From Acidobacteriota bacterium (GTDB lineage Bacteria > Acidobacteriota > Vicinamibacteria > Vicinamibacterales > UBA8438), in NCBI GenBank assembly GCA_009861545.1, contig VXME01000114.1:1-64000 (forward strand): DNA of 64,000 bases. The letters are read 5' to 3'. Below are positions 32,970 through 47,072 of this stretch, piece after piece. The notes under the pieces are model-generated. The model saw nothing but the letters and a program-made list of their open reading frames with translations. It was not told the origin of the DNA and made no database searches. Position numbers and translations under genes: made by a program. Each line of letters begins with the position of its first letter. Position 1 is the first letter of the stretch.

Positions 32970-33011
32970 CAGCGGTAGCGAGCCGCTACCCAGCGGTAGC
33001 GAGCCGCTACC
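32970..33011. repeat. Two exact 21-bp tandem repeats, each a 7-bp hairpin
   Basis: Two identical 21-base units (32970-32990 and 32991-33011). Each contains GGTAGCG, loop AGC, CGCTACC. The receptor stop codon (33007-33009) lies in the second unit, and the units resemble the receptor's last codons, as if the gene end had been copied. Confidence 0.8.
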
Positions 33012-36000
33012 AGAGGTAGCGGGCCGAGAAGACCATCGTGCGCGGCGGACGGGCCGAGATCACCTGCCCGAACCGCTCGTCCACCTGGTTGCCGGCCTCG
33101 TCGAACTGCGCGTTGAGGTCGACGTTGCGGAACTGCACCTGGTTGAACACGTTGTAGATCTCCCAGCCGAGCTCGAAGAACCGCCCGTCGCCGATCGGCA
33201 TCCGCTTGCCGAGGCGGAGGCCGGTGTCGTAGAAGCCGGGCAGCCGCAGGTCGTCCTTGCGCACGTTGCCCACTTCGCCCAGCCCGGGGCGGCTGAAGCA
33301 GTCGGTGTTGAACCAGCGGTCGATCGTGCCGCCGCCCGCCGACAGGTCGCAGCTCCGATCGATGTTGGCCGGCACCACCAGGTCGATGCTCGCCAGTCCG
33401 TCCGGGTTCGTGGACCGGCGCATCAGGTCGCCGCCGCCCAGGATGTCCTGGTTGTCGGTGGTGCTGAAGGCGACCATGGCCGGCGCGCCGCTCACCATCT
33501 GCGTGATGCCGGAGAGCACCCAGTCGTCCAGCAGGAAGCCGGCCGCTCCGCCGGGATCGGGCAGGTCCCAGGTGTAGTTGATCGTCAGCAGATGGGTCCG
33601 GTCGAAGTCCGACAGGCCCCAGGACCAGGTGTCGCGGTTCTCGTACTTCGGCACGCGCGAGCGGGCGCCGTAGAGGATGTCCGCCGACGTGTGGTCCTTC
33701 GACTGCGACAGCGTGTACGAGACCGAGAACTCCAGGCCGCCCGTGAAGCGGCGGTTGACCTGCGTCTGCAACGCGTTGTACTGCGACCGCCCGGCGTTCT
33801 CCGTCATGATGATGCTGGCGTAGCCGGGGTAGGGGCGGAAGAAGTTGTCGGGTAGCGGGAGGCCGGTCGTCGGGTCCTGGTTCTCGGGCAGGAACCGGGC
33901 GCCGCGCTCGATGGTGTTCTCGTCCCAGAGCTGCGGGAGGTTGGTGGCGCGCGTCCCGACGTAGGCGATGTCGAGCACCGTCTGCCAGCCGATCTCGGTC
34001 TGCACGCCGGCCGTGTAGCTGTAGAGCGTCGGCGCCCGATGATCGGTCACCACGCCATACACCGTGCCCGTCGGATAGACGATGCCGCCGGTGCCGGCGA
34101 GCACGCCCTGCCGGATCGTCTCCCAGTTGTACATCGTGTTGTACCAGACCTGCGGCGTCGCGACGAGCGGCGGGTTGAGCGCCTGCCGCCAACTGAGCGC
34201 GCCCGCCTGCTGCGTGTTGTGGAAGACGCCGAAATTCGCCCGCAGCGCCGTCCGGCCGTTGCCGAACAGGTCGTAGGCGAAGCCGATCCGCGGCTCGAGC
34301 AGGATTGTCGGCAGGTTCTGGAACGGGGCCGGCACCTGCGGATCGTCGTGGCGCACCATGCCGTTGTCGCTGGGCGATCCGGGCACGAGCGCGCCGATGA
34401 CCACCTCGGGCCGGATGTCGGTCGGGTCGTTGGGATTCATCGCCATCCGGACGCCGTCGACCATGGTGGGCATGTAGAGTTGCGCGGCGTTCATGTGGTC
34501 GAAGCGCGACGGCAGGAACGAGGCCGAGGGGTTCGCCTGCTCGAACACCGTGTACTTGCTGAAGCGCATGCCGATGTCCAGCGTCAGGCGGTCGACCGGC
34601 TGCCACTTGTCCTGCACGAAGACGTTGCCGATCCACTGGCTGGCGAGCTGGCCCAGCCGGGCGGTGTTCTCCTGGTACGACCGGAACGCGCCGATCAGGG
34701 CGTTCGCGTACGGGTGGCCGGTGCCGAACGGGTTCGCCGGATCGCGGTTGAAGTCGTAGCGCCCCGCGAGCGCGCTGGCGCCCTTCCCCTCGATGTTGGT
34801 CAGGTGCTCGACGTAGGCGCCGACCTTGAAGTTGTGGCGTCCCGAGGTCCACGACAGCCCGTTGTAGAAGTTGAACAGGTCGTCGTTGCCGTAGTTGATG
34901 AAGCGCGAGTCCCAGCTCGGGTTCGCCGGGTTCGGAATCGGCGCCCCGAACGACATCGCCGGAATGATCCCGTACAGATTGTTGGTCGGATACCACTGCG
35001 CGAGCGTGTACGGCACGACGCCCCGCGTGTTGGAGCCGTCGCCCCCGTTGTCGCGGCCGTCGTCGCCGGGGAAGGCGGTGTCGGAATCGATGCGCCGGTT
35101 CCGGTTGATGTCGAACGAGCTGGCCCACGGGTTGTGCTCGGACGAGTGGCGCCAGCCGAAGTTGAATTCGTTCACCATGTTGTCGCCGATGACGCGCGTG
35201 TAGTTGGTGGCGACGGCGAAGTCGTTGTAGGTGAACGTCCGCTCCAGCATCTCCCAGCCGCCGCGCCAGGAGCTGGTCGGCTGCAGCCAGTGCGAGAAGC
35301 GCGCGTAGATCGAGTCGCTCGTGGTCGGCCGGACGTCGACCCGGGTGACGTTGTTGATCCGCGGGGCCCGCTGCTGGCCCTGGAACTGGTAGTTGTAGTT
35401 CGACTGTCCCTCGACGTTCGGGTCCGGATACCAGTTCAGCAGCGCCTGCCCGTGCGGGTTGATCCGGTCCGCCGGGACGACGTTGCCCGGGAACGGCATG
35501 CCGGTCAGCGGATCGACTACCGGGATCAGGTTCCCCGACTGATCGAAGCTGCGCGAGAAGTCGCCCATCCGCTCCGCCAGGCTCGGCACCGTGAGCTGGG
35601 CGAGGTTCTGCGGCGTCCTGACCCCCCACTGCTCGTAGCTGTAGAAGAAGAACACCTTGTCCTGCACGATGGGGCCGCCGGCGTTGGCGCCGAGCGTCCA
35701 GTAGCGGTACTCCGGCTTCGGGATGCCGGCCTGCTTGTCGAAGTAGTCCTCGCTCCGGAACTGCTCGCTGCGGCCGTAGGTGTAGGCCGTGCCGGAAAAC
35801 TCGTTGGTTCCCGCCTTGGTGACGAGGTTGATCTGCGCGCCGCCGTTGCGGCCGGTGTCGGCGGTGAAGTTGGTGAGCTGCACGTTCACTTCCCCGACCG
35901 CGTCCGGGTTCATCGAGTGGCTGGAGACCTCCGGCAGGCCGATGTCGTTGCCGGGGATCCCGTCGATGGTGACGGTGCTCCAGCCCTGGCGCGTGCCGCC

Positions 36001-36552
36001 GACGTTGGGCAGCCACGAGCCGATGACGATCTCGCCGATCGCGTCCGGGTCGGGCTGGTAGCCGACGCCCGGCAGGATCCGCAGCATCGACGTGACGTCG
36101 CGCCCGCGGACCGTTATCGCGTCGATCGTCTCCTCGGTGATCAGCGCCGAGCGGTCCGAGCTGATCGTCTCGACGATCCGCTGCGCGGTGACCTGGACGG
36201 TCTCTTCCAGGGCGGCGATCGAGAGCTCCACCGTGCCGACGTTGTACTGCTGGTTGGTCGACAACTGGGCGCCGGTCAGCTCGTAGGCTCCGAAGCCGGG
36301 CAGCTCGACGCGGACCGTGTACGGCCCGGGCTGGACCGCGGCGAAGTTGAAGACGCCGACCTCGTTCGTGACGGTGTTTCTCAGCGCGCCGGTCTCTTCC
36401 TGCAGCAGGGTGACCGTCGCGCCCGGCAGGACCAGGCCGCTGTCGTCGACGACGTTGCCGGAGAACCCGCCGGTGGTGGTCTGCGCATTCGCGTTCGACG
36501 CAAGACCGAGGACAAGCAGAGTGACGAGAGTGAGCTTCCACGTGTGTCTCAT
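33007..36552 (-). CDS. Large TonB-dependent receptor with carboxypeptidase-regulatory N-terminus
   Basis: An outer-membrane protein of 1181 residues of the acidobacterial type. A signal peptide (MRHTWKLTLVTLLVLGLASN, cleaved after ANA) is followed by a carboxypeptidase-regulatory beta-sandwich (GFSGNVVDDSGLVLPGATVT), a plug domain (ISSDRSALITEETIDAITVRG to ILPGVGYQPD), and a long beta-barrel ending in an aromatic residue (ARYLW). No TonB box is obvious. The ligand is unknown; large members of this kind take up oligosaccharides or siderophores. GAGGAGA lies before the ATG. Confidence 0.92.
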   Translation of the reverse strand: MRHTWKLTLVTLLVLGLASNANAQTTTGGFSGNVVDDSGLVLPGATVTLLQEETGALRNTVTNEVGVFNFAAVQPGPYTVRVELPGFGAYELTGAQLSTNQQYNVGTVELSIAALEETVQVTAQRIVETISSDRSALITEETIDAITVRGRDVTSMLRILPGVGYQPDPDAIGEIVIGSWLPNVGGTRQGWSTVTIDGIPGNDIGLPEVSSHSMNPDAVGEVNVQLTNFTADTGRNGGAQINLVTKAGTNEFSGTAYTYGRSEQFRSEDYFDKQAGIPKPEYRYWTLGANAGGPIVQDKVFFFYSYEQWGVRTPQNLAQLTVPSLAERMGDFSRSFDQSGNLIPVVDPLTGMPFPGNVVPADRINPHGQALLNWYPDPNVEGQSNYNYQFQGQQRAPRINNVTRVDVRPTTSDSIYARFSHWLQPTSSWRGGWEMLERTFTYNDFAVATNYTRVIGDNMVNEFNFGWRHSSEHNPWASSFDINRNRRIDSDTAFPGDDGRDNGGDGSNTRGVVPYTLAQWYPTNNLYGIIPAMSFGAPIPNPANPSWDSRFINYGNDDLFNFYNGLSWTSGRHNFKVGAYVEHLTNIEGKGASALAGRYDFNRDPANPFGTGHPYANALIGAFRSYQENTARLGQLASQWIGNVFVQDKWQPVDRLTLDIGMRFSKYTVFEQANPSASFLPSRFDHMNAAQLYMPTMVDGVRMAMNPNDPTDIRPEVVIGALVPGSPSDNGMVRHDDPQVPAPFQNLPTILLEPRIGFAYDLFGNGRTALRANFGVFHNTQQAGALSWRQALNPPLVATPQVWYNTMYNWETIRQGVLAGTGGIVYPTGTVYGVVTDHRAPTLYSYTAGVQTEIGWQTVLDIAYVGTRATNLPQLWDENTIERGARFLPENQDPTTGLPLPDNFFRPYPGYASIIMTENAGRSQYNALQTQVNRRFTGGLEFSVSYTLSQSKDHTSADILYGARSRVPKYENRDTWSWGLSDFDRTHLLTINYTWDLPDPGGAAGFLLDDWVLSGITQMVSGAPAMVAFSTTDNQDILGGGDLMRRSTNPDGLASIDLVVPANIDRSCDLSAGGGTIDRWFNTDCFSRPGLGEVGNVRKDDLRLPGFYDTGLRLGKRMPIGDGRFFELGWEIYNVFNQVQFRNVDLNAQFDEAGNQVDERFGQVISARPPRTMVFSARYLW

Positions 36553-36617
36553 AGGGGTGTCTCCTCATCACGAACGGAGTTCCCGCCGCACGGACGCTCG
36601 ATCGCCGTCTTCCTCGA

Positions 36618-37529
36618 CTAGTTCAGGTTCGCGACGCGCCTCCGCAGTGCCTTCACGTGCTCCCAGATCTCCTTGTGCTCGTCGTTGTCGCTCGAGTCGT
36701 CCTCGCTTCTCTCGCTGCCTCCGACCCTCCCGCGCGAGGAGAACCGCAGGTACGCCTCCAGGTCCCGCAGCGCGGCGGGGTAGTCGTTCAGGTGGTAGGC
36801 CAGCAGGCCGCGGTCGCGCAGCTCCGTCGTGGCCGAAGGGTCGAGGGCCAGCAGCAGCTCGGTGATCGCGTGCGCTTGCGGGAACGAGCGCATGCGGACG
36901 TAGATGCGCTTCAGGTTGACCAGCATGCGGACGATGATCTCCGGCTTGGTGGCTCGCATCAGCATCCGGCGGTCGAACGCGACCTCGTCGCCCGCGTGGG
37001 ACCGCAGCAACTTGCTGCAGTCGAGTTCGGAGAGGATGGCGCCGCCGTGGAAGGGATCCACGATGACCTGGTCCTCCTCGAGCGGGGCGTCCGCGCCGCC
37101 CGGCTGTACGCGGAGCAGAAAGTGACCGGGAAAGTTCACGCCGTCGGTTTGCAGGCCGGCCCGCCGGGACACCTCGATGTAGACGAGAGCCAGGGTGATC
37201 GGGATGCCGGTGCGGCGATCGATGACGTTGTTGAGGAAGCTGTTCCGCGGGTCGTCGTAGTGCTTGCGGTTACCGGCGAACCCCTGCTCCTTGAACAGAT
37301 AGGAACTGATTCCCGCGATGCGCCGCAGCAGGTCGGCGTCCTCGCCCAGGGCCGCGATGCGGTCCGCCGCCGCGGCGCCCATCCGGTCGAGCGCCCGCAG
37401 GTAGCGCGACGCGTCAAGCTGCGGGTACTCGATGCGGGCGATGGCCAGAGCGGCCGGCGCCAGATCGGGAGACGGAGCCTTGGCGACTTCGGTGAAGCGT
37501 CGGATGAAGTCCGCGGAGACCACGCTCAT
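36618..37529 (-). CDS. SirB1-family transglutaminase-like/TPR protein
   Basis: A 303-residue protein of the SirB1 family: an N-terminal transglutaminase-like fold (RNSFLNNVIDRRTGIPITLALVYIE and GVNFPGHFLLRV) and C-terminal tetratricopeptide helices (SFPQAHAITELLLALDPSATTELRDRGLLAYHL). The Cys nucleophile of true transglutaminases is not present, as is usual for the family, and function is unassigned. ATG 37529 shares one base with the stop of the HAD gene. It is the last gene of a three-gene operon. Confidence 0.88.
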   Translation of the reverse strand: MSVVSADFIRRFTEVAKAPSPDLAPAALAIARIEYPQLDASRYLRALDRMGAAAADRIAALGEDADLLRRIAGISSYLFKEQGFAGNRKHYDDPRNSFLNNVIDRRTGIPITLALVYIEVSRRAGLQTDGVNFPGHFLLRVQPGGADAPLEEDQVIVDPFHGGAILSELDCSKLLRSHAGDEVAFDRRMLMRATKPEIIVRMLVNLKRIYVRMRSFPQAHAITELLLALDPSATTELRDRGLLAYHLNDYPAALRDLEAYLRFSSRGRVGGSERSEDDSSDNDEHKEIWEHVKALRRRVANLN

Positions 37530-38305
37530 CACCTGTCTCCATTCTGCACCGGTCGAGCGTGTACGTCGACCCCGCTCCGCCGGCACAGCGCGGCCAGCGC
37601 GCGATGGTCCACGTCGGCGAGGCTGGAAACGATGGCGGTTGCGCCGGTCAGCGCGGCGGCTTCGTAGGTCGTAGTGACCCCGACGCACGGGAGTCCTGCG
37701 GCGACGGCGGCCTCGATGCCCCAGCGGGAGTCCTCGATGGCGACGAAGCCGGAGGGCGACGGGGAGCGGCCGAGCTCGGCGCTCAACAGCTCCACCGCTC
37801 GCACATAGCCGTCCGGGGCAGGCTTGGCGCGCTCGACGTCGTCGGCCGCGACGATGGCCGAGAAGTGCCGGCGGAGTCCGGCGCCCTGCAGAATGTCCTC
37901 GATCTCCTGATGGAGTGCGCCCGAGGCGATTCCGAGGACGAGTTCTCCGGCGAGCCGCTCGATGCACGCGGGCGCGTCCGGAAACACGACGTCGCCAGCG
38001 CCGACCAGCTCTTCGTAACGCCGTCCCTTGGCTTCGATCAACCGCTCCAGATCGCCTCCGTCGAAGGCCAACCCCTGGTCGGCCGCGACCGTCGTGAACA
38101 CGCCGACGTCGTCGAATCCGAGGTAGCGGGCCTCGTAGTCCTCCCTGGAGAGGGTCATTCCCCGGTTGCGCAGAACGTCCCGATACGCTCGCAGGTGCAG
38201 GCGCTCGGTGTCCGCGATGACGCCGTCGAAGTCGAAGACGACGCCGACCAGGGGACCGCCGGCGACCATCCGGGCGTCGGGATGCCGGACGTCGGGCGGG
38301 CTCAT
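37529..38305 (-). CDS. HAD-superfamily phosphatase (beta-phosphoglucomutase-like)
   Basis: A 258-residue hydrolase with motif I DFDGVIADTE (nucleophile Asp), motif II IASGA, motif III Lys in KPAPDGY, and motif IV EDSRWGIEAA. A four-helix cap follows motif I, so it belongs to the subclass of beta-phosphoglucomutase and phosphoglycolate phosphatase. Substrate unknown. ATG 38305 overlaps the stop of the DUF1684 gene by four bases (ATGA). Confidence 0.9.
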   Translation of the reverse strand: MSPPDVRHPDARMVAGGPLVGVVFDFDGVIADTERLHLRAYRDVLRNRGMTLSREDYEARYLGFDDVGVFTTVAADQGLAFDGGDLERLIEAKGRRYEELVGAGDVVFPDAPACIERLAGELVLGIASGALHQEIEDILQGAGLRRHFSAIVAADDVERAKPAPDGYVRAVELLSAELGRSPSPSGFVAIEDSRWGIEAAVAAGLPCVGVTTTYEAAALTGATAIVSSLADVDHRALAALCRRSGVDVHARPVQNGDR

Positions 38306-38997
38306 GGCCCGGGCGCTTCGACGGGCTCGACCGGAACGAAGATCGGCAGCCGGCGTTCGTCTTCGGGCGGCAGCTTCTCGCCGGCGTGAATCGGTCTCGG
38401 GAGGCGGTTCTCCGGCGGAGGAAACGGGCAGTCGTACTGCTCGTCGAAGTAGCAGGTGGGGTGGTAGGCGCGGTTGAAATCGAGGTCGTAGACGCCGGTG
38501 GAGCTGAACGGCAGGTCGATGTAGCGTCCGGCCGGATAGGTCTCGCTGCGGCTCGTTTCGTCGCGGAACGGCACGAACAGGCCCTCCTCTTCGGACAGCA
38601 GCGCCGTCAGCCTGTGGGATTCGCCGTGAAGCACGAACTCCAGGTGGCCGATGCGCTGCATGCGCCGGAACTGCCCGGTCGACGTGGGGACGTCGTAGAT
38701 GGGCTGATCGTCGGCGATGTCGAGCTGGGCGGGCACGCGGTACGACGGATCCGGATCGTAGTAGCGCAGCGGCACCATCCACGAGCGTCGATCCAGCGGC
38801 ACGAAGGACTCGGGGTCGCTCTTGAGGAACTCGTCCTTGTAGGCGCGGGCTTCGAGAAGCAGCTCCAGGTAGCTGTGCTCATCCGGTTCCGGCGGCCCGC
38901 AGCCCGCCGCCAGCAGGAGGGCGCCGGCCGCGACGGCAATGACGAGTCGCCGTCCTCCGTCGCCCGCCGCGTCCCAATTGCTGCTTCTTCTGGTCAC
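38302..38997 (-). CDS. DUF1684 lipoprotein
   Basis: A 231-residue exported protein. A lipobox (LLLAAGC, Cys33) follows a hydrophobic signal, predicting a lipid-anchored periplasmic protein. The DUF1684 signature is clear: FRDETSRSETYPAGRYIDLPF, YDLDFNRAYHPTCYF and FPPPENRLPRPIHAGEKLP. Function is unknown. The start is GTG 38997 with GAGAG before it. It is the first gene of the operon driven from 39029-39056. Confidence 0.9.
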   Translation of the reverse strand: MTRRSSNWDAAGDGGRRLVIAVAAGALLLAAGCGPPEPDEHSYLELLLEARAYKDEFLKSDPESFVPLDRRSWMVPLRYYDPDPSYRVPAQLDIADDQPIYDVPTSTGQFRRMQRIGHLEFVLHGESHRLTALLSEEEGLFVPFRDETSRSETYPAGRYIDLPFSSTGVYDLDFNRAYHPTCYFDEQYDCPFPPPENRLPRPIHAGEKLPPEDERRLPIFVPVEPVEAPGP

Positions 38998-39028
38998 GAA
39001 CTCTCAAGTCCTCACTGCCTGTCCTACA

Positions 39029-39056
39029 AATATATCGCCGATGCTCGGGGAAGCAA
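39029..39056 (-). promoter_or_regulatory. Promoter of the DUF1684-HAD-SirB1 operon
   Basis: TTGCTT (39056-39051), 16-base spacer and TATATT (39034-39029) on the minus strand. A transcript would begin near 39022, 25 bases before the first start codon. Confidence 0.55.
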
Positions 39057-39101
39057 GCATCCGGGCATCCGCGAATTCGGCGGCGCGACCGGCCGCGGCC
39101 C

Positions 39102-40874
39102 CTACAAGGGGTACGCGCCCCGTTCCACCGCCGCGTCCGAGAGCCGCCGCCGGAGGCGCACGTCGTTGGCCGGCGTCACCTTCAGGAGCCGGCGCAGGCC
39201 CGCGAGGCGCGTCCGCAGCTCGTCGCCTTCCGCCATGGCGGCGAACGCGGAACGGGCCGTCGTCTCGATGCGCATGGCGGCCCCGTCGACGTACGACGCG
39301 GCGGCGTCGGCCTGCAGATCGGCGCCGGTTGCTCCGGACGCCGCGGCGGCCCGGGCGCGGGCGACCGCGCTGTCCGCCGCATAGGTGTCGATGACCACGT
39401 CCGCCGCGAACGAGAGCACCTCCTGCTGCTCGCTGAGCTTCTGGCCGTAGGTCTGCATCGCGAGGCCGATGACGGCCAGACCGACCTTGCGGAACATGCC
39501 GACCGCGGCCGCCGCGGCCCCGAGCGGGCCGTCGGGTGCGGCTGCCGCTCCCGACGGGGCCAGGATCTCGTCCTGCAGCTTCTTCGCCGCCGGGATCAGC
39601 GGCAGATCGCCCTTGACGGCGCGCTTGACGAGCATGCCGGGGATGAGCAGCCGGTTGATCTCGTTCGTGCCCTCGAAGATGCGGTTCACCCGCGAGTCGC
39701 GATAGTGGCGCTCGGCCGGGTAGTCCCTGACGAACCCGTTCCCGCCGTGAATCTGCACGTTCTCGTCGAGGACGTCATGCAGTGTCTCGCTGCCCGCCAC
39801 CTTGAGGATCGACGACTCGACCGCGTACTCCTCGAGGGCGCGCAGGATGGCGCCGCCGTCGCCGGGATCGACGCCCTCGAGCGTCCCGTCGATGAGTCCC
39901 ACCGTCCGGAACACCATCGACTCCAGCGCGTAGGTCCGGGCGACCATCCCGCCGATCTTGTGCTTGACGGCGCCGAAGCTCGCTATCGGCTGCCCGAACT
40001 GCCGCCGGCTGGCCGCGTAACGCGCCGATTCGCCGATGGCGCCGCGAGCGCCGCCCACGGTCGACGCCCCCAGCTTGAAGCGGCCGTAGTTCAGGACGTT
40101 GAAGGCGACCTTGTGGCCCTTGCCGACCTCGCCGAGCAGGTTGTCGGCCGGGACCCGGACGTCCTGCAGGATCACCGGCGTCGTCGACGAGCCGTGCAGG
40201 CCCATCTTGTGCTCTTCCTTGCCGGTGGAGACGCCGTCGAACCCGCGTTCGACGATGAACGCCGTGAAGTGCTCGCCGTCGACCTTGGCGAAGACGATGT
40301 AGAGATCGGCGAACCCGCCGTTGGTGATCCACATCTTCTCGCCGTTCAGCACGAAGCTGCCGTCCGCCTGCCGCGCCGCGCGCGCCTTGGCGCCGAGCGC
40401 GTCCGAGCCGGAGCCCGCCTCGCTCAGGCAGTAGGCGCCGACGGTCTCCCCGGTCACCAGGGACGGCAGGTAGCGCTGCTTCTGCTCGTCGGTGCCGAAC
40501 ATCCGGATCGGCAGGATCGCGAGGTTGGCGTGCGCGCCGTAGGTGGCGCTGAACGAACCGCACTGGCCGAGGCAGCCCGCGATGACCGCGGCGCTGGCCT
40601 TGTCGAGCGCCAGGCCGCCGTAGGCCTCCGGCACGTCGGTCGCCAGCAGCCCGAGTTCGCCGGCGCGTCGCAGCAGCTCGCGGGTCAGGTCCCAGTCCTT
40701 CGTCTCGAGTTGCTCGGTGTGGCCGGCGACCTCGTCGGTGAACTCCTGGGCCGTCTGCCGTATCAGTCGGTGCTCTTCGGTCATGCGCTCCGGGGTGAAT
40801 ATCGTCTCCTGCGGCGCCGCCTCCAGGAGCCACTCCCCGCCGCGCGGAACCGTCTCGATTGCGGTGGTGGTCAT
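39102..40874 (-). CDS. fadE: Acyl-CoA dehydrogenase, long-chain/VLCAD type
   Basis: The FAD enzyme that starts beta-oxidation. Its 590 residues are about 200 more than short- and medium-chain enzymes, and the C-terminal extension is that of the VLCAD/ACAD9 and Bacillus FadE type. Visible are the FAD-binding LSEAGSGSDALGAKARA and WITNGGFADLYIVFA, and the catalytic Glu in IFEGTNEINRLLIPG. It is the last gene of the fad operon, 58 bases after fadA. GAGGGA precedes the ATG. In B. subtilis the order fadN-fadA-fadE is the same. Confidence 0.93.
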   Translation of the reverse strand: MTTTAIETVPRGGEWLLEAAPQETIFTPERMTEEHRLIRQTAQEFTDEVAGHTEQLETKDWDLTRELLRRAGELGLLATDVPEAYGGLALDKASAAVIAGCLGQCGSFSATYGAHANLAILPIRMFGTDEQKQRYLPSLVTGETVGAYCLSEAGSGSDALGAKARAARQADGSFVLNGEKMWITNGGFADLYIVFAKVDGEHFTAFIVERGFDGVSTGKEEHKMGLHGSSTTPVILQDVRVPADNLLGEVGKGHKVAFNVLNYGRFKLGASTVGGARGAIGESARYAASRRQFGQPIASFGAVKHKIGGMVARTYALESMVFRTVGLIDGTLEGVDPGDGGAILRALEEYAVESSILKVAGSETLHDVLDENVQIHGGNGFVRDYPAERHYRDSRVNRIFEGTNEINRLLIPGMLVKRAVKGDLPLIPAAKKLQDEILAPSGAAAAPDGPLGAAAAAVGMFRKVGLAVIGLAMQTYGQKLSEQQEVLSFAADVVIDTYAADSAVARARAAAASGATGADLQADAAASYVDGAAMRIETTARSAFAAMAEGDELRTRLAGLRRLLKVTPANDVRLRRRLSDAAVERGAYPL

Positions 40875-40932
40875 GATGTCCCTCGTCTCTTGAATTGCCC
40901 CGGCCCGCGTGGTCGCACCGCGTGGAACCCGG

Positions 40933-42117
40933 TCAGAGTCGCTCGAAAATGCCGGCGGCCCCCATGCCGCCGCCCACGCACATGGTGACCATGCCGTAGC
41001 GCCCGTTCCGCCGCTCGAGCTCGTGGAGCAGCGTGGCCGTCAGCTTCGCGCCGGTGCAGCCGAGTGGATGGCCGAGCGCGATGGCGCCGCCGTTGACGTT
41101 GAGCCTGTCGGGATCGATCGGCAGCTCGCGCAGGCAGGCCAGGATCTGGGCGGCGAAGGCCTCGTTCAGCTCCACCAGGTCGATGTCGTCCAGCGTCAAC
41201 CCGGCCGTCTTCAGCGCCTTGCGTATCGCCGGGACGGGGCCGATGCCGAACAGCTCCGGGTCGACGCCCGCCGTCGCGTAGGCGACGAAGCGCGCCAGCG
41301 GCTTCAGTCCCGCCTGCGCGGCCCGCTCCGCGGTGGTCACGACGACGGCGGCCGCGCCGTCGCTCATCTGCGACGAGTTGCCGGCGGTCACCGACCCGCC
41401 GGCGAGAAACGCCGGGCGCAGCTTGCCCAGCGCCTCCAGCGAGGTGTCCGCGCGCGGTCCCTCGTCGCGGTCGAACGTGACGTCCCGCACCGCCGGCGCC
41501 TCTCCGTTGCCGTTGGCCGGCTCGGCGATGCTGACCGTCACCGGCACAGTCTCCGCGTCGAAACGGCCGGCCCCCAGGGCCGCGAGCGCACGCTGATGGC
41601 TGCGCAGCGCGTAGGCGTCCTGCTCGTCCCGGCTGATCGAGGACTCCCGCGCATGGTTCTCGGCGACCAGGCCCGTGCTGAGATAGACGTCCGGGTAGTG
41701 GGCCACGAGCTCGGGATTCGGGGCGATCTTGTGCCCTCCCATCGGCACGAGGCTCATCGACTCGGTGCCGCCCGCCACTATCGTTTCGGCCCAGCCGACC
41801 ATGATCTTCTCCGCCGCGAAGGCGATGGACTGCAGCCCCGACGAACAGAAGCGGTTGATGGTGACGGCCGACGCCGCGACCGGAATCCCGGCCCGCAGGC
41901 TGGCGATGCGGGCCACGTTCATTCCCTGCTCGGCTTCGGGCATCGCGCAGCCGAGGATGACGTCGTCGACCGTTTCGGGCTCGATGCCCTCGGCGCGCCG
42001 CAACGCCTCGCGAATCGCGACGGCGGCCAGCTCGTCGGGGCGGGTCGTGCGCAACGTGCCCTTGGGCGCCTTGCCGGCCGGGGTGCGGACGGCGGATGCG
42101 ATGACTGCGTCTCTCAT
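40933..42117 (-). CDS. fadA: Acetyl-CoA acyltransferase (3-ketoacyl-CoA thiolase)
   Basis: Cleaves 3-ketoacyl-CoA with CoA to release acetyl-CoA. It has 394 residues. The nucleophile Cys91 lies in [15 protein letters not shown]; the catalytic His is in [16 protein letters not shown] and the second Cys in [14 protein letters not shown]. It lies in the fad operon between the alpha/beta hydrolase and fadE. The ribosome-binding site is weak. Confidence 0.95.
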
Positions 42118-42147
42118 GGTCTTGACTCGCTGGGTTGCTCAAGTCGA

Positions 42148-42957
42148 TCAGGCCGGTACCCGTACCGCGGCGGGTCTGCCGGCGTGCAAGCGGACGAACT
42201 GCGTCACCACGTCGGCGAAGCGCTCCGGACGCGTGACGAGTCCCAGGTGCCCGGTTCGGTCGAGCCGATCGTAGCGCGCGCCCGGGATTGCCCGCAGGTA
42301 CTCCCGCGTACTCGCGACGTCCACGACCCGATCGAGACCCGGATCGCCGGTCACGATCTGGGTCGGCGCCGCGATGCGGGCGCAGTCGGCCGCGAAATCG
42401 AAGCGGTCCGCGCAGCGCGCGCGTTCGGCCATGCAGGTCGGCGCCGCCGGATACCGTGCGACCCGCCACAGGTGACCGGCGATGAAGGGGATGCGCTCGC
42501 CGGGCGACGGGAAGGCGGCCGCCAGCTCCGGGTAGAGGCGGAAGCACGACCCGAGCGCGAAGACCGGCGCCATCAGCCGGGGGGCGGCCAGATACCGCTC
42601 GACCCTGCATCCGGGCCGCCACGCAGGCGACGGCGTGGAGACGAGCGTCAGGGTCCTGACGCGTTCCGGGCGGCGCGCGGCGTAGTGCAGGGCTATCCAG
42701 CCGCCGTAGGACACGCCGCACAACGACACCGGACCGTGAACGCCGGCGCGGTCGAGCAGGGCGTCGAGCCATTCGGTGTGGCGTTCGAATCCGACCGCCG
42801 GATCGGTGCCGGCGATGGAGCCGGAGTCGCCCGGCAACGACCCGCTGATCACGCGGCAGCGCGCCGCGAGCGCCTCCACCGCGGGCAGCATCCACTCCCA
42901 GCGGCCCTGAATGCCGGGGACGAGCACGAGCGGCGGGCCGGCCCCACGGTCGGTCAT
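42148..42957 (-). CDS. Alpha/beta hydrolase inside the fad operon
   Basis: A 269-residue alpha/beta-fold hydrolase. Oxyanion region LVLVPGIQGRWEW, nucleophile elbow GVSYGG, Asp in TGDPGLD and His in DRTGHLGLV form a plausible triad. Its ATG shares one base with the fadN stop (TGATG), so it is translationally coupled within the operon. B. subtilis fadNAE has no such gene. A thioesterase, lipase or monoacylglycerol-type role feeding or draining beta-oxidation is inferred from position only. Confidence 0.85.
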   Translation of the reverse strand: MTDRGAGPPLVLVPGIQGRWEWMLPAVEALAARCRVISGSLPGDSGSIAGTDPAVGFERHTEWLDALLDRAGVHGPVSLCGVSYGGWIALHYAARRPERVRTLTLVSTPSPAWRPGCRVERYLAAPRLMAPVFALGSCFRLYPELAAAFPSPGERIPFIAGHLWRVARYPAAPTCMAERARCADRFDFAADCARIAAPTQIVTGDPGLDRVVDVASTREYLRAIPGARYDRLDRTGHLGLVTRPERFADVVTQFVRLHAGRPAAVRVPA

Positions 42958-45257
42958 CAGTTCCTCAGGGGCTTGCCGGTCTTGAGCACGTGGGCGATGC
43001 GTTCCTGCGTCTTCCGCTCGCCGCACAGGCTCAGAAACGCTTCGCGTTCGAGGTCCAGCAACCGCTGCTCCGACACCGTCGTGGCGTGCGGCAGGTCGCC
43101 GCCCGCGAGGATGCGGGAGAGGGTCCGTCCGAGGTGGGCGTCGTAGTCGCTGATGCGTCCGCCGCGCCACGCGATATGCACGCCGAGATCGAGCGCCGCG
43201 CGGACGCCGGCTCCGCCCACGGGGATGTCGTGGCGCGGCGGCGGCTGATAGCCGGCCCGCGCCATGTCCAGAGCCGTCGCCTTCGCATCGGCCAGCAGAC
43301 GCTCCCGGTTCATCGTGATGGCGTCCGCCTCGCGCAGCAGCCCCAGGCGCCGGGCGTCGGCGGCGCTCGTCGAGACCTTGCCGAATCCGATGAGCTCGAA
43401 CGCCTGCTGGATGCAGGGCAGCGGGTCGGCCGCACCCGCCGGGACGCGGGCCGTGAACCGGGCGAGCAGCTCCTTCGTGCCGCACCCGGCCGGGATCAGG
43501 CCGGCGCCCACCTCCACCTGGCCCATATAGGTCTCGGCCGCCGCGTGCACGCGGTCCCCGTGGAGCACGATCTCGCAGCCGCCCCCGAGGGCCAGCCCGG
43601 CCGGGGCGACGACCACCGGCACGGCGGCGTACCGCAGCCCGACCACGGCCGATTGGAACGTGCGCACCATCAGGTCGATCTCGTCCCAGTTCTCTTCCTG
43701 CGCCTCGAGCAGCAGGAGCATCAGGTTGGCGCCCGCCGAGAACGCCGGCGCGTCGTTGCCGATCACCAGCGCGTCGAAGTTCCGGGACGCCTCTTCCACG
43801 CCGGCCGTCATCATCGCGACGGTATCGCCGCCGATGGCGTTCATCTTCGAGTGGAACTCGAGGCCGAGCACGCCGTCGCCGAGGTCGACGAGGCTCGCAC
43901 CGGCGTTGCGTCGGACCGGCGGACGCTGCTCTTTCGCCCGTTGCAGAATCTGCAGGTCGGGTGCGCGCGGGGGGACCGGGCCCTCCCGGAAGCGGACGCT
44001 GCTCGCCGCCGGTGGCGCCGAATGCTGCACGGCGCGCACGATCGCGGGCGGCTTCGTCCGCCCGGCCGCCTCCAGCACCCGCTCCACCCCGATGGCGTCC
44101 CAGAGCTCGAAGGGTCCGAGCTCCCAGCCGAAGCCCCACCGCATGGCGCGGTCGACGTCGTCGATGGTGTGCGCGATCTCCGGCGCGGCCTCCGCCGCGT
44201 ACACCAGCGTCGGGGCGAGCGTGGCGCGCAGGAACTCCCCGACGCGGTCGCGTCCCTCGAACAAGGTCCGAATCCGCTCGCCGCGGTCGTCCATAGCGGC
44301 GGCGGCGTCCAGCGCCGGCAGTCGTGGCGGCCGGCGGGCGCGGTAGTCCATCGTGCCCGGATCCAGCGTCAGAATCTCGCTGCCGTCGCCGGTCTTCTGC
44401 TTGCGGTAGAAGCCGCCGCCCGCCTTCGATCCGATCCAGCCCCGCTCGACCATGCCGGCGACCAGCGGGGGCAGCGCGAAGGAGGCGCGCTCGGCATCGT
44501 TCTCGAGGCGCTCGGCCAGGTTGGCCGCCACGTGGGCCAGGATGTCCAGACCCGCGATGTCCAGTGTGCGAAACGTCGCCGAGCGGGGCCGGCCGATGAC
44601 GGGGCCGGTCATCGCGTCGATTTCCTCGATCGTGTACGCGCCGCCCGCGAGCTGTTCCAGGATCCGTGCGACGCCGAACATGCCGATGCGGTTGCCGATG
44701 AAGTTCGGGGTGTCCTTCGCGACGACCACGCCCTTGCCCAGCGCGTGATCGCCGAACTTCACCATGGCGTCGAGCAGGGCCGAATCCGTGTCGGCCGTCG
44801 GGATGACCTCGAGCAGCGGCAGATAGCGCGGCGGGTTGAAGAAGTGGGTGCCGAGCCAGTGGCGGCGGAAAGCCTCGCCGCGCCCGTCCGCGAGGCTGGC
44901 GATCGGGATCCCCGACGTGTTGGAGCTGACGACGGCGTGTGCCGCGCGGTGCGGCTCGACCCCGGCCAGCAACTCCCGCTTCACGTCCAGCCGCTCGACG
45001 ACGGCTTCGAGGATCCAGTCGTGCTCGCCGACGCGCTCCAGATCGGTGTCGAACCCGCCCACGGCGATGCGCCGCGCCGTCTCCGGCGTGAAGAACGGGT
45101 CCGGTCTCAGCTTGCGCGCACGCTTCAGCCCTTCGCGGGCGGTCGCGGCGTCGAGATCGAGGAGGAGCACACGGAGGCCGGCGTTGGCGGCATGGGCGGC
45201 GATCTGGGCGCCCATCGCGCCCGCGCCGAGCACGGCGATGGAGTGTATCCGTTGCAT
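42957..45257 (-). CDS. fadN: Bifunctional 3-hydroxyacyl-CoA dehydrogenase/enoyl-CoA hydratase, FadN type
   Basis: Performs hydration and NAD-linked oxidation in beta-oxidation. The dehydrogenase comes first: the NAD motif IAVLGAGAMGAQIAAHA is at the N-terminus, THFFNPPRYLPLLEVI follows, and two C-terminal helical domains come next. The enoyl-CoA hydratase (crotonase) part is at about residues 470-700, with APAFSAGANL (oxyanion) and LALGGGCEI. This domain order is the reverse of E. coli FadB and matches B. subtilis FadN. 766 residues. Its start is three bases after the regulator's stop, so it is coupled to it. Confidence 0.93.
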   Translation of the reverse strand: MQRIHSIAVLGAGAMGAQIAAHAANAGLRVLLLDLDAATAREGLKRARKLRPDPFFTPETARRIAVGGFDTDLERVGEHDWILEAVVERLDVKRELLAGVEPHRAAHAVVSSNTSGIPIASLADGRGEAFRRHWLGTHFFNPPRYLPLLEVIPTADTDSALLDAMVKFGDHALGKGVVVAKDTPNFIGNRIGMFGVARILEQLAGGAYTIEEIDAMTGPVIGRPRSATFRTLDIAGLDILAHVAANLAERLENDAERASFALPPLVAGMVERGWIGSKAGGGFYRKQKTGDGSEILTLDPGTMDYRARRPPRLPALDAAAAMDDRGERIRTLFEGRDRVGEFLRATLAPTLVYAAEAAPEIAHTIDDVDRAMRWGFGWELGPFELWDAIGVERVLEAAGRTKPPAIVRAVQHSAPPAASSVRFREGPVPPRAPDLQILQRAKEQRPPVRRNAGASLVDLGDGVLGLEFHSKMNAIGGDTVAMMTAGVEEASRNFDALVIGNDAPAFSAGANLMLLLLEAQEENWDEIDLMVRTFQSAVVGLRYAAVPVVVAPAGLALGGGCEIVLHGDRVHAAAETYMGQVEVGAGLIPAGCGTKELLARFTARVPAGAADPLPCIQQAFELIGFGKVSTSAADARRLGLLREADAITMNRERLLADAKATALDMARAGYQPPPRHDIPVGGAGVRAALDLGVHIAWRGGRISDYDAHLGRTLSRILAGGDLPHATTVSEQRLLDLEREAFLSLCGERKTQERIAHVLKTGKPLRN

Positions 45258-45260
45258 CGT

Positions 45261-45920
45261 TCAGACCGTTGGCTGCGCCTTCATTCCATTGACCAGCAGA
45301 TCGATGACCGGGTCCGCGTCGTCGACCAGCCGGTGGTCGCGGTTGCTCAGCACCCAGTTCGTCACCATCTCGTCGAGTGCGCCGAAGATGGCCTTCGCCG
45401 CCAGCGTCGCGTTGAGGTCGGTCCGGAACACGCCAGCTTCCTGCGCCGCACGGACGGCGTCCCGCAGGTGATCGAGATACGTTCGGAGCTGGGCGGCCGA
45501 GAAGCGCTCCATGAACTTCGTGGACTGCCGCAACTCGACCTGGAACACGATCGCCAGGTCGCGCCGGCTGCCGAGACCGCCGAGGTGCACGCGCGCGAGG
45601 CGGCGCAGCCGCTCGACCGGATCGGTGACTCCGGTGAGCGCGCGGTCCGCCTCTTCGAGCGCTCGCGTCATCGACTTCTCGAAGATCGACGTCAGCAGGT
45701 CGTCCTTGCTCCGGAAGTAGAGATACACGGTCCCGGCGGCGACCCCGGCCTCCCGCGCCACGTCCGCGACCTGGGCGTTGAAGAAGCCGCGGCGGGCGAA
45801 CACGCGCGTGGCGGCGTTCAGAATCGCGGTCCGCTTGTCGCCCGCGCCGGGCTGCCGGCGAGCCGGGATCCCGTGTTGCGCGCTCGCGCCGGACGGAACC
45901 GTCTGTGAATGAACGTTCAT
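45261..45920 (-). CDS. fadR: TetR-family fatty-acid regulator, FadR-like
   Basis: The likely acyl-CoA-responsive repressor of the fad operon. The N-terminal DNA-binding domain has AILNAATRVFARRGFFNAQV and REAGVAAGTVYLYFRSK, the TetR helix-turn-helix. The ligand half closely tracks B. subtilis FadR: LAIVFQVELRQS and IFGALDEMVTNWVL are near-copies of segments known from that protein. A 30-residue basic N-terminal arm precedes the first helix. ATG 45920 is the only start in frame; it lies inside an 18-bp palindrome and just after a promoter, implying autoregulation. Confidence 0.88.
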   Translation of the reverse strand: MNVHSQTVPSGASAQHGIPARRQPGAGDKRTAILNAATRVFARRGFFNAQVADVAREAGVAAGTVYLYFRSKDDLLTSIFEKSMTRALEEADRALTGVTDPVERLRRLARVHLGGLGSRRDLAIVFQVELRQSTKFMERFSAAQLRTYLDHLRDAVRAAQEAGVFRTDLNATLAAKAIFGALDEMVTNWVLSNRDHRLVDDADPVIDLLVNGMKAQPTV

Positions 45921-45923
45921 TCA
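45906..45923. promoter_or_regulatory. FadR-like operator, 18-bp perfect palindrome
   Basis: TGAATGAACGTTCATTCA is perfectly self-complementary. Its half-site TGAATGA/TCATTCA is the one in the published Bacillus FadR consensus. It overlaps the fadR start codon and lies just downstream of the -10 at 45934-45929, a position that would block initiation. No second copy was noticed in the window. Confidence 0.85.
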
Positions 45924-45928
45924 GTAAA

Positions 45929-45958
45929 ATTCTGCAACGACCGTCGCGGAGTTGTCAA
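45929..45958 (-). promoter_or_regulatory. Promoter of the fad operon
   Basis: On the minus strand TTGACA (45958-45953), an 18-base spacer and CAGAAT (45934-45929). Initiation would fall within a few bases of the fadR ATG at 45920, inside or beside the operator. Confidence 0.6.
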
Positions 45959-45998
45959 GGGGGCGACAGTGCCGTGTTTCAAGGAATGACGGAAACGT

Positions 45999-46029
45999 GC
46001 ACGCGGTGCCGGATTGCGGCACCGCGTGC
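45999..46029 (-). terminator. Strong hairpin after the TPR gene
   Basis: A perfect 13-bp stem, GCACGCGGTGCCG and its complement, with a 5-base loop. On the minus strand it is followed by ACGTTTCC. It lies between the end of the TPR genes and the fad promoter and would insulate the operon. Confidence 0.6.
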
Positions 46030-46050
46030 GACGAGGAATGTGCGGATCCT

Positions 46051-46065
46051 CCCCCCGGCGGGGGG
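46051..46065. terminator. GC hairpin at the end of the TPR gene
   Basis: CCCCCC-GGC-GGGGGG, a few bases after the stop codon of the minus-strand TPR gene and just before the larger hairpin. No T-run. Confidence 0.35.
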
Positions 46066-46070
46066 CGGCG

Positions 46071-47072
46071 CTAGGGCAGTGCGTTCAACGTAGCCTGGGC
46101 CTGCGCGGTCTCGGCTGCGGACGTCGGATCGTCGACGTCGATCGTGCGCTGGAAAAACTCCTTGGCGGTGTCCATGTCGCCCTTGTTCAACGCGACGAGG
46201 GCGAGCTTGAAGAGGGGCTTCGCCCAGCTTGGATCGACCATGTTCGCCCGCTCGTACCATTCGGCCGCGCCGTCCACGTCTCCCTGGGAGAAGGCCTGCT
46301 CGCCCTGGTTGTAGAGATCCTCGCGCGAGGCGGAGAGGCTGGTTGCGGCCTGCTCGAGCAACTGTCGGTCCGCCGCATCCGCCGTGCCGGCTGCCAGGCG
46401 CACCCTGGCGCGGGCGACCTGTACGGTCTGGTTCTGCGGGTCGGCAGCCAATGCGCGGTCGTACGCCGCGATGGCGGCATCGGTCTGCTGCAGTTGCGCA
46501 TAGGCGTTGCCGATGTTGAAGTGCAGGTTGCTCAGTGCCGGGAGCTGAGCGAGAACGGTCTCGTAGCCGGAGATCGCCTCCTGGTAGTTCCCGCCGTTGA
46601 AGGCCCCGTCGGCAGACGCAATCTGCGCGTCGATCGCGTCGAGGTCGATCCCGGCGACCGCATCGTCGCCCAGCATCTGCGCCAACGGGTGGCGGATGCG
46701 AATCAGCTCGAAGTCGATGGGCGCGTTCCGTGTCTGGGTGATGTTCGAAGGACCCTCGCTCGGCGAGTAGCCTCGCGGCGACCCGTTCCGCTCGCCGCAG
46801 GCGTCCGTGCAGTCAGCCCGGAACATCCATTGTCCGCTCACCAGTCCGATGATGGCGAAGTTCCCGTCGTTCCCGGTCGTGGTGGTGAACTCCGTAGGAT
46901 TGGCATTCGGATTGGTAGCCGTAATCCGGGCGCCGGCCAGTGGGTTCCCGTTGTCGTCCACGACCTGGCCGACCACGCGCCCCTGGCCCTGTGCGGCTGC
47001 CGAACCGGCAATCGCGAAGCTCAGGGCGAGACCGAACGTGCAAGAGATGGTGTGTTGCAGACGCGGGCTCAT
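46071..47072 (-). CDS. Exported carboxypeptidase-regulatory/TPR protein
   Basis: A 333-residue secreted protein. A signal peptide (ending SAAAQ) is followed by a carboxypeptidase-regulatory beta-sandwich (VVGQVVDDNGNPLAGARITA), a variable loop with two Cys, then at least three tetratricopeptide repeats (AISGYETVLAQLP, AIAAYDRALAADP, AAEWYERANMVDP). These are protein-binding scaffolds; the partner is unknown. AGGAG lies six bases before ATG 47072. The upstream gene is a shorter version of the same architecture. Confidence 0.85.
   Translation of the reverse strand: MSPRLQHTISCTFGLALSFAIAGSAAAQGQGRVVGQVVDDNGNPLAGARITATNPNANPTEFTTTTGNDGNFAIIGLVSGQWMFRADCTDACGERNGSPRGYSPSEGPSNITQTRNAPIDFELIRIRHPLAQMLGDDAVAGIDLDAIDAQIASADGAFNGGNYQEAISGYETVLAQLPALSNLHFNIGNAYAQLQQTDAAIAAYDRALAADPQNQTVQVARARVRLAAGTADAADRQLLEQAATSLSASREDLYNQGEQAFSQGDVDGAAEWYERANMVDPSWAKPLFKLALVALNKGDMDTAKEFFQRTIDVDDPTSAAETAQAQATLNALP

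Follow-up and report, generated by a model that had tools for sequence, protein, structure and literature searches.

A predicted alpha/beta hydrolase gene as an inherited member of the beta-oxidation operon in Vicinamibacterales

Introduction

The closest described counterpart of the locus analyzed here is the fadN-fadA-fadE operon of Bacillus subtilis. The gene order given in the available text of a review (PMC4525379) leaves no gene between fadN and fadA, as the initial annotation of our locus had assumed for Bacillus. In Escherichia coli, the thioesterase FadM belongs to the fad regulon and has been proposed to purge stalled acyl-CoA (PMC9329746, accessible part). The FadR-repressed beta-oxidation cluster of Sulfolobus acidocaldarius includes Saci_1105 and Saci_1116, for which esterase activity has been shown according to the sections available of PMC6449355. 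We analyzed an acidobacterial fad locus in which an alpha/beta hydrolase gene is placed between fadN and fadA. Among the open-licence papers listed in the literature searches, none was seen to describe this operon variant, including the available text of papers on Granulicella (PMC7074687) and on Acidobacteriota genomes (PMC11778308).

Organization of the fad locus

The window, i.e. the whole stretch of 64,000 nucleotides that was analyzed, carries on its minus strand the genes fadR, fadN, hydrolase, fadA, fadE and DUF1684 in this order (Table 1). Thus, fadN, fadA and fadE are found in one directon together with a gene for a YsiA-type regulator. The fadR product reaches 94.8 bits with the Pfam model TetR_C_4 (cut-off 21) and 176.7 bits with the NCBIfam model FadR_Bac, which is under the cut-off of 200; FadN and FadA of the window also remain under some of the curated NCBIfam cut-offs. 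The 3' end of fadR is located 3 nt ahead of fadN, and 30 nt separate the stop codon of the hydrolase gene from fadA. Relatives of the DUF1684 protein have solved structures (PDB 2lok, 2lnu). Its gene is often the last of the operon in the order Vicinamibacterales, and in some genomes without fadN it stays with the hydrolases. Elsewhere in the window, at 33007-36621, an 860-aa plus-strand frame lies over a 1181-aa minus-strand frame; the latter resembles a TonB-dependent receptor by eye, and the former is probably a spurious frame of high-G+C DNA.

Table 1. Coordinates of genes, motifs and predicted regulatory sites of the fad locus in the window.
Feature	Position	Strand	Basis or remark
Sigma-70-like promoter TTGACA-18-CAGAAT ahead of the operon	45929..45958	-	consensus scan
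Perfect 18-bp palindrome TGAATGAACGTTCATTCA, predicted FadR operator	45906..45923	.	read from sequence
fadR, TetR-family regulator with YsiA-like C-terminal domain	45261..45920	-	Pfam, NCBIfam
fadN, 3-hydroxyacyl-CoA dehydrogenase/enoyl-CoA hydratase	42957..45257	-	Pfam 3HCDH_N, 3HCDH, ECH_1
GAGGAA, ribosome-binding-site-like	42961..42966	-	within fadN 3' end; from sequence
Alpha/beta hydrolase gene	42148..42957	-	ATG start, 269 aa
GVSYGG nucleophile elbow	42700..42717	-	Ser83 codon at 42709-42711
Asp209, predicted catalytic acid	42331..42333	-	orthologue alignment
His237, predicted catalytic base	42247..42249	-	orthologue alignment
fadA, thiolase	40933..42117	-	Thiolase_N 235 bits, Thiolase_C 174 bits
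fadE, acyl-CoA dehydrogenase	39102..40874	-	NCBIfam FadE_Bacil 749.6 bits, cut-off 600
DUF1684 gene, common companion at operon 3' end	38302..38997	-	PF07920 138.8 bits, cut-off 25

The hydrolase scores 66 bits with Pfam Abhydrolase_1 and 60 bits with Abhydrolase_6, above the gathering cut-offs of 25.8 and 26.3, respectively. The A at position 42957 is common to its ATG and to the stop codon of fadN (TGATG), and the gene has a GAGG of its own, which ends 5 nt ahead of the ATG. The one-base overlap and the placement before fadA had been described correctly in the initial annotation, as had the coordinates and motifs of the hydrolase (GVSYGG, Asp and His), and the three catalytic residues are kept in orthologues. 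For this comparison, 63 hydrolase open reading frames (ORFs) were aligned with that of the window, after exclusion of eight of 71 ORFs outside 235-300 aa. Ser83 and His237 are present in all 64 sequences and Asp209 in 62, the other two having Glu, so that the predicted Ser83-Asp209-His237 triad is intact. As these loci were picked by the stretch G[IV]QGRWE[WY], the constancy of this stretch within the alignment is built in. In a second alignment, which was based on whole-protein similarity and comprised 41 of 54 relatives (42 sequences in the residue counts), Glu21 and Glu144 are constant in 42/42, and Gln17, Arg19 and Trp20 each occur in 40-41 of the 42. Compared with its three nearest relatives in the set of named loci, the gene shows a dN/dS ratio of 0.21-0.25, which indicates purifying selection and thus that it is maintained. 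By eye no signal peptide was seen on the hydrolase, which is probably a cytosolic protein.

Distribution and inheritance within the order

Gene neighbourhoods were compared, as the initial annotation had proposed, in 149 genomes of the order Vicinamibacterales, with a strong hydrolase orthologue defined by an E value of 5.2e-15 or better and a strong fadN by one under 1e-80. The arrangement proved not to be confined to the window's genome. A strong hydrolase orthologue is found in 118 of the 149 genomes and a strong fadN likewise in 118; both occur together in 107 (Fisher p 8.6e-10 for the table 107/11/11/20, with relatedness ignored). In 103 of these 107 genomes the hydrolase gene is the next match downstream of fadN on the same strand. 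Three of the remaining four pairs are located at contig ends (G124, G121, G019), and the genes of the fourth are on separate contigs (G140). Where fadN was split over contigs (G040, G145, G148), the piece beside the hydrolase was used. This recurrence beside fadN across the order indicates that the arrangement is not due to chance. That it is a recent insertion or an assembly artefact peculiar to the window's genome is contradicted by the 118 orthologues, and can be given next to no weight, since fadN-hydrolase-fadA also occurs in the single-contig genomes G003 and G016 (loci L056 and L057), which speaks against an artefact of assembly.

A scan of named genomes with one short pattern (the stretch G[IV]QGRWE[WY]), which divergent members may escape, yielded 76 hydrolase loci, all from metagenome-assembled genomes. 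Most of them are labelled Acidobacteria and several Vicinamibacterales, Vicinamibacteraceae or Vicinamibacteria, and the few labelled otherwise (e.g. Woeseiaceae, Acidimicrobiia, Bifidobacterium breve) were taken as wrong bins. In 67 of the 76 loci fadN is immediately upstream of the hydrolase gene. In the 37 loci where each of the five operon proteins reached 85% length, the distances between pairs of hydrolases correlate with those of FadN, FadA and FadE (r 0.75, 0.74 and 0.87), with 0.19 as the largest correlation in 999 permutations, as is expected of shared descent. The predicted hydrolase is best regarded as an old component of the beta-oxidation operon of this order that has been inherited vertically.

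The initial annotation had also described the hydrolase gene as translationally coupled to fadN and had concluded that its product has a stoichiometric job with beta-oxidation. The comparison bears out neither a coupling that is conserved nor the stoichiometric job deduced from it. The two genes overlap in only nine of 55 measurable named loci, and the gap between them has a median of 27 nt and extends up to 312 nt (five of the 76 loci were skipped as cut off, and start codons were set by a simple rule). Furthermore, 11 genomes have fadN without the hydrolase and 11 have the hydrolase without a strong fadN match, although in both sets some cases are contig-limited. The rarity of the overlap, the separate GAGG of the hydrolase gene and the separate occurrence of the two genes leave a stoichiometric FadN-FadA role unsupported; the overlap itself is not a conserved trait. 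A structural or channelling partner of a FadN-FadA complex is highly improbable in view of the same counts, although the window does share the one-base overlap with the three named loci most closely related to it. The 11 fadN genomes without the hydrolase also show that it is dispensable for the pathway; six of them lack X (see below) as well, including G128, where the locus is at the end of a contig.

A second hydrolase gene and loci outside the order

The hydrolase gene is directly followed by another gene, here termed X (e.g. L014:2370-3026), at 56 of the 76 named loci, and in 51 of these 56 fadA comes next. X encodes a different alpha/beta hydrolase that is closest to PDB 2fuk, 3trd and 2i3d (Z 30-32, identity 32-36%), which we take to be hydrolases of the COG2945 type. 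The length filter retained 45 of 48 X ORFs, of which 40 were aligned and five omitted without a rule; residues S115, D164 and H193 are found in 40/40 aligned copies. A further X alignment comprised 27 proteins. A strong X match is present in 106 of the 149 genomes, and none was found in any of the four genomes of the window's genus, that of the window among them. Among the 118 genomes with fadN, 86 have both hydrolases, 21 only the first, five only X and six neither, some of the absences being due to contig ends. From this distribution, the hydrolase and X are predicted to have been gained or lost separately within the order. A common form of the predicted operon is (fadR)-fadN-hydrolase-X-fadA-fadE-DUF1684, and the window represents the form without X.

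Hydrolase, X and DUF1684 genes also occur together without a strong fadN match (L029:6774-9184, L031:7674-9729, L032:5936-7973), and some fadN-less genomes keep X without the hydrolase. These clusters would fit a general detoxifying or promiscuous hydrolase that is inherited within the operon and has no specific role in beta-oxidation. Its absence from 11 fadN-bearing genomes would fit as well, and so would its rate of change, as it has diverged faster than the other four operon proteins compared (mean distance 0.51 vs 0.23-0.40). The purifying selection, the conserved triad and the position kept throughout the order argue against such a protein, which we regard as improbable.

Outside the order, 126 genomes with fadN were listed, of which 28 were sampled together with five further loci. 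None of the hydrolase, X and DUF1684 genes was found in the stretches examined of these 33 acidobacterial fad loci, several of them being short or cut off by the end of a contig. Within the same class, the hydrolase was found in 0/7 loci sampled from the eight fadN genomes of another order. A FadD-type acyl-CoA ligase is encoded in 16 of the 33 outside loci, with fadR upstream of fadD in 13 of these 16; operons with the ligase gene upstream of fadN include L164, L165, L169 and L204. In 128 locus records from Vicinamibacterales, with some genomes counted twice, no operon contained fadD. The window's genome encodes a full-length FadD relative elsewhere (G000:C142, 51% identity). On a simple reading of these distributions, the hydrolase, X and DUF1684 genes would have entered the operon, and fadD left it, on the stem of the order.

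Predicted regulation by FadR

The promoter-like sequence TTGACA-18-CAGAAT is directly followed by a perfect palindrome, whose half-sites TGAATGA/TCATTCA show no mismatch to what we take to be the Bacillus FadR box. The consensus scan of 38000-46400 yielded this one promoter against 0.4 expected, which by itself is no functional evidence. The palindrome overlaps the annotated ATG of fadR (45920) and the -10 element ends at 45929; fadR may therefore give a leaderless mRNA, unless its actual start codon is located further on.

Because the 4-nt spacing between the half-sites was picked by eye from this site, other loci and genomes served as controls. The palindrome is the sole site at two or fewer mismatches throughout the 6.35-Mb genome of the window. 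Across the order, 71 exact palindromes occur in 69 of the 149 genomes, and 67 of the 71 are located 497-884 nt upstream of fadN, i.e. ahead of fadR. Two further exact copies precede X in fadN-less genomes, with fadR or a fragment of it in between; loci L188 and L190 show this arrangement of palindrome, fadR gene or fragment and X without a strong fadN. The reversed pattern gave no exact site in the 149 genomes. At two or fewer mismatches, 75 sites were counted in 1.95 Mb of loci (a set with some genomes twice and some loci outside the order), compared to 0-6 for 20 scrambled palindromes. A FadR pattern with a 1-nt spacer was rejected as a candidate: it had no match in the window and 46 scattered matches at three or fewer mismatches in 2.06 Mb of loci.

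No exact palindrome is present in 80 of the 149 genomes, including the single-contig G003 and G016. In the 56 named loci that covered the start of fadN and no less than 1.2 kb ahead of it, fadR and the palindrome occur together in 33 and are both absent in 23, and no locus has only one of them. This joint presence or absence ties the palindrome to FadR, and the 23 loci (e.g. L098, L100, L101 and L103-L108), which keep the rest of the operon with the hydrolase, restrict FadR control to part of the order. Locus L079 contains at 779-1309 a second exact palindrome followed by fragments of fadR and fadN, with the intact operon some 2 kb further downstream. This looks like a decayed duplicate, and the two sites of the locus are as far apart as the pair in G058. 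Locus L029, without a strong fadN, has a site with two mismatches ahead of X, and G090 has a stray site (C101).

Judging from operator, regulator gene and gene order, the hydrolase gene of the window very likely belongs to a FadR-controlled operon, and the predicted FadR regulon of this genome very probably consists of this one operon. The prediction for this genome is thus a single regulator with a single operator, and co-production of the hydrolase with the beta-oxidation cycle.

Predicted function of the hydrolase

The AlphaFold2 model of the hydrolase (pLDDT 95.3) shows an alpha/beta hydrolase fold with a four-helix cap (helices 117-183). Its best structural matches, which lie within a tie at Z of about 27, are aryl esterases, a carboxylesterase and the PcaD lactonase. 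PDB 2xua, 4uhc, 1va4 and 4etw gave Z of 25.8-27.1 at 16-22% identity, and the sequence profile ranks C-C bond hydrolases high as well. No thioesterase stood out and no function was singled out in the structure searches. The cap (residues 112-196) is basic: its mean net charge is +8.5 (sd 2.7) and is positive in 64/64 orthologues, with +5 in the window, under the family mean, compared to +1.0 (sd 3.9) in the shorter caps (71 vs 85 residues) of 22 weaker paralogues of the order. The charge may point to an anionic substrate, for example a CoA thioester.

On balance, the hydrolase is best explained as an inherited member of the fad operon that is controlled by FadR and hydrolyzes acyl thioesters, a reading that we hold to be somewhat probable as a whole. 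FadR would repress the operon until it is released by long-chain acyl-CoA, as in B. subtilis, and the hydrolase would then be produced together with FadN, FadA and FadE. Presumably it acts as a cytosolic serine hydrolase on fatty-acyl compounds, though this step is uncertain. When intermediates stall, it may cut carrier-linked acyl thioesters (acyl-CoA) to CoA and free acid. The purge of thioesters is ranked first because of the predicted FadR control in this genome and the precedent of FadM; a thioester is named as the substrate only tentatively. The closest folds and profiles, which are those of carboxylesterases, PcaD lactonase and C-C bond hydrolases, count against a thioesterase.

An ester or a lactone as the substrate is possible and placed a close second. 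In this case the enzyme, a cytosolic carboxylesterase, monoacylglycerol lipase or lactonase, would feed the pathway by freeing or opening acyl substrates, and a FadD from another locus would activate its product, a role that we likewise consider possible. Esterases and an enol-lactonase come nearest in structure (4uhc, 1va4 and 2xua), members of the hydrolase family score on the PcaD, RutD and BioH models, and the FadD relative in the window's genome could serve for activation. A precedent is given by the two esterases in the Sulfolobus acidocaldarius FadR cluster, as reported in the available part of PMC6449355. However, the scores stay far from the curated cut-offs for PcaD (TIGR02427, 74 vs 255.85 bits), BioH (TIGR01738, 31.4 vs 206.95 bits) and PHA depolymerase. 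Extracellular lipids are unlikely substrates since inspection by eye showed no secretion signal, and feeding leaves the basic cap unexplained.

The favoured reading of an acyl-thioester hydrolase can be extended to a proposal that we rate as rather unlikely. The order would have rebuilt its beta-oxidation operon by removal of fadD and addition of two serine hydrolases and DUF1684, often under a single FadR site, and the hydrolase would found a new family of acyl-CoA thioesterases acting as a release valve. If this is true, there is a new alpha/beta-fold thioesterase family that is marked by the stretch PG[IV]QGRWE[WY] and the basic cap.

Comparison with known systems

The operon described here defines a fadNAE variant that is shared across an order. 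The activity of the enzyme would reveal either a release of acyl-CoA or a feeding of esters that is built into beta-oxidation, and the two hydrolases and DUF1684 could receive a joint annotation. With respect to its fold and triad, the hydrolase resembles the branch of PcaD, BioH and the aryl esterases, from which it differs by its own PG[IV]QGRWE[WY] stretch and its basic cap. The COG2945-type hydrolases (2fuk, 3trd and 2i3d) resemble X, which gave no match in the window's genome.

FadM of E. coli is a thioesterase III with the hot-dog thioesterase fold, whereas the protein found here is an alpha/beta serine hydrolase with putative thioesterase activity. Both may share the mode of expression, as the hydrolase is predicted to be co-induced with beta-oxidation via a FadR repressor like FadM (accessible part of PMC9329746), and they may also share the purge of stalled acyl-CoA. 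The likeness to Sulfolobus acidocaldarius is one of gene context; its cluster is archaeal and, in the available sections of the paper cited above, spans 30 kb with 23 open reading frames.

The operon shares with that of B. subtilis the proteins FadN, FadA and FadE in the same order and a TetR-type FadR (YsiA) regulator. In contrast to B. subtilis, the operon here opens with fadR, and one or two alpha/beta hydrolases and DUF1684 are added in this order. Finally, the FadR regulon is predicted to comprise one operon in the window's genome, compared to five in B. subtilis according to the text available of PMC4525379.
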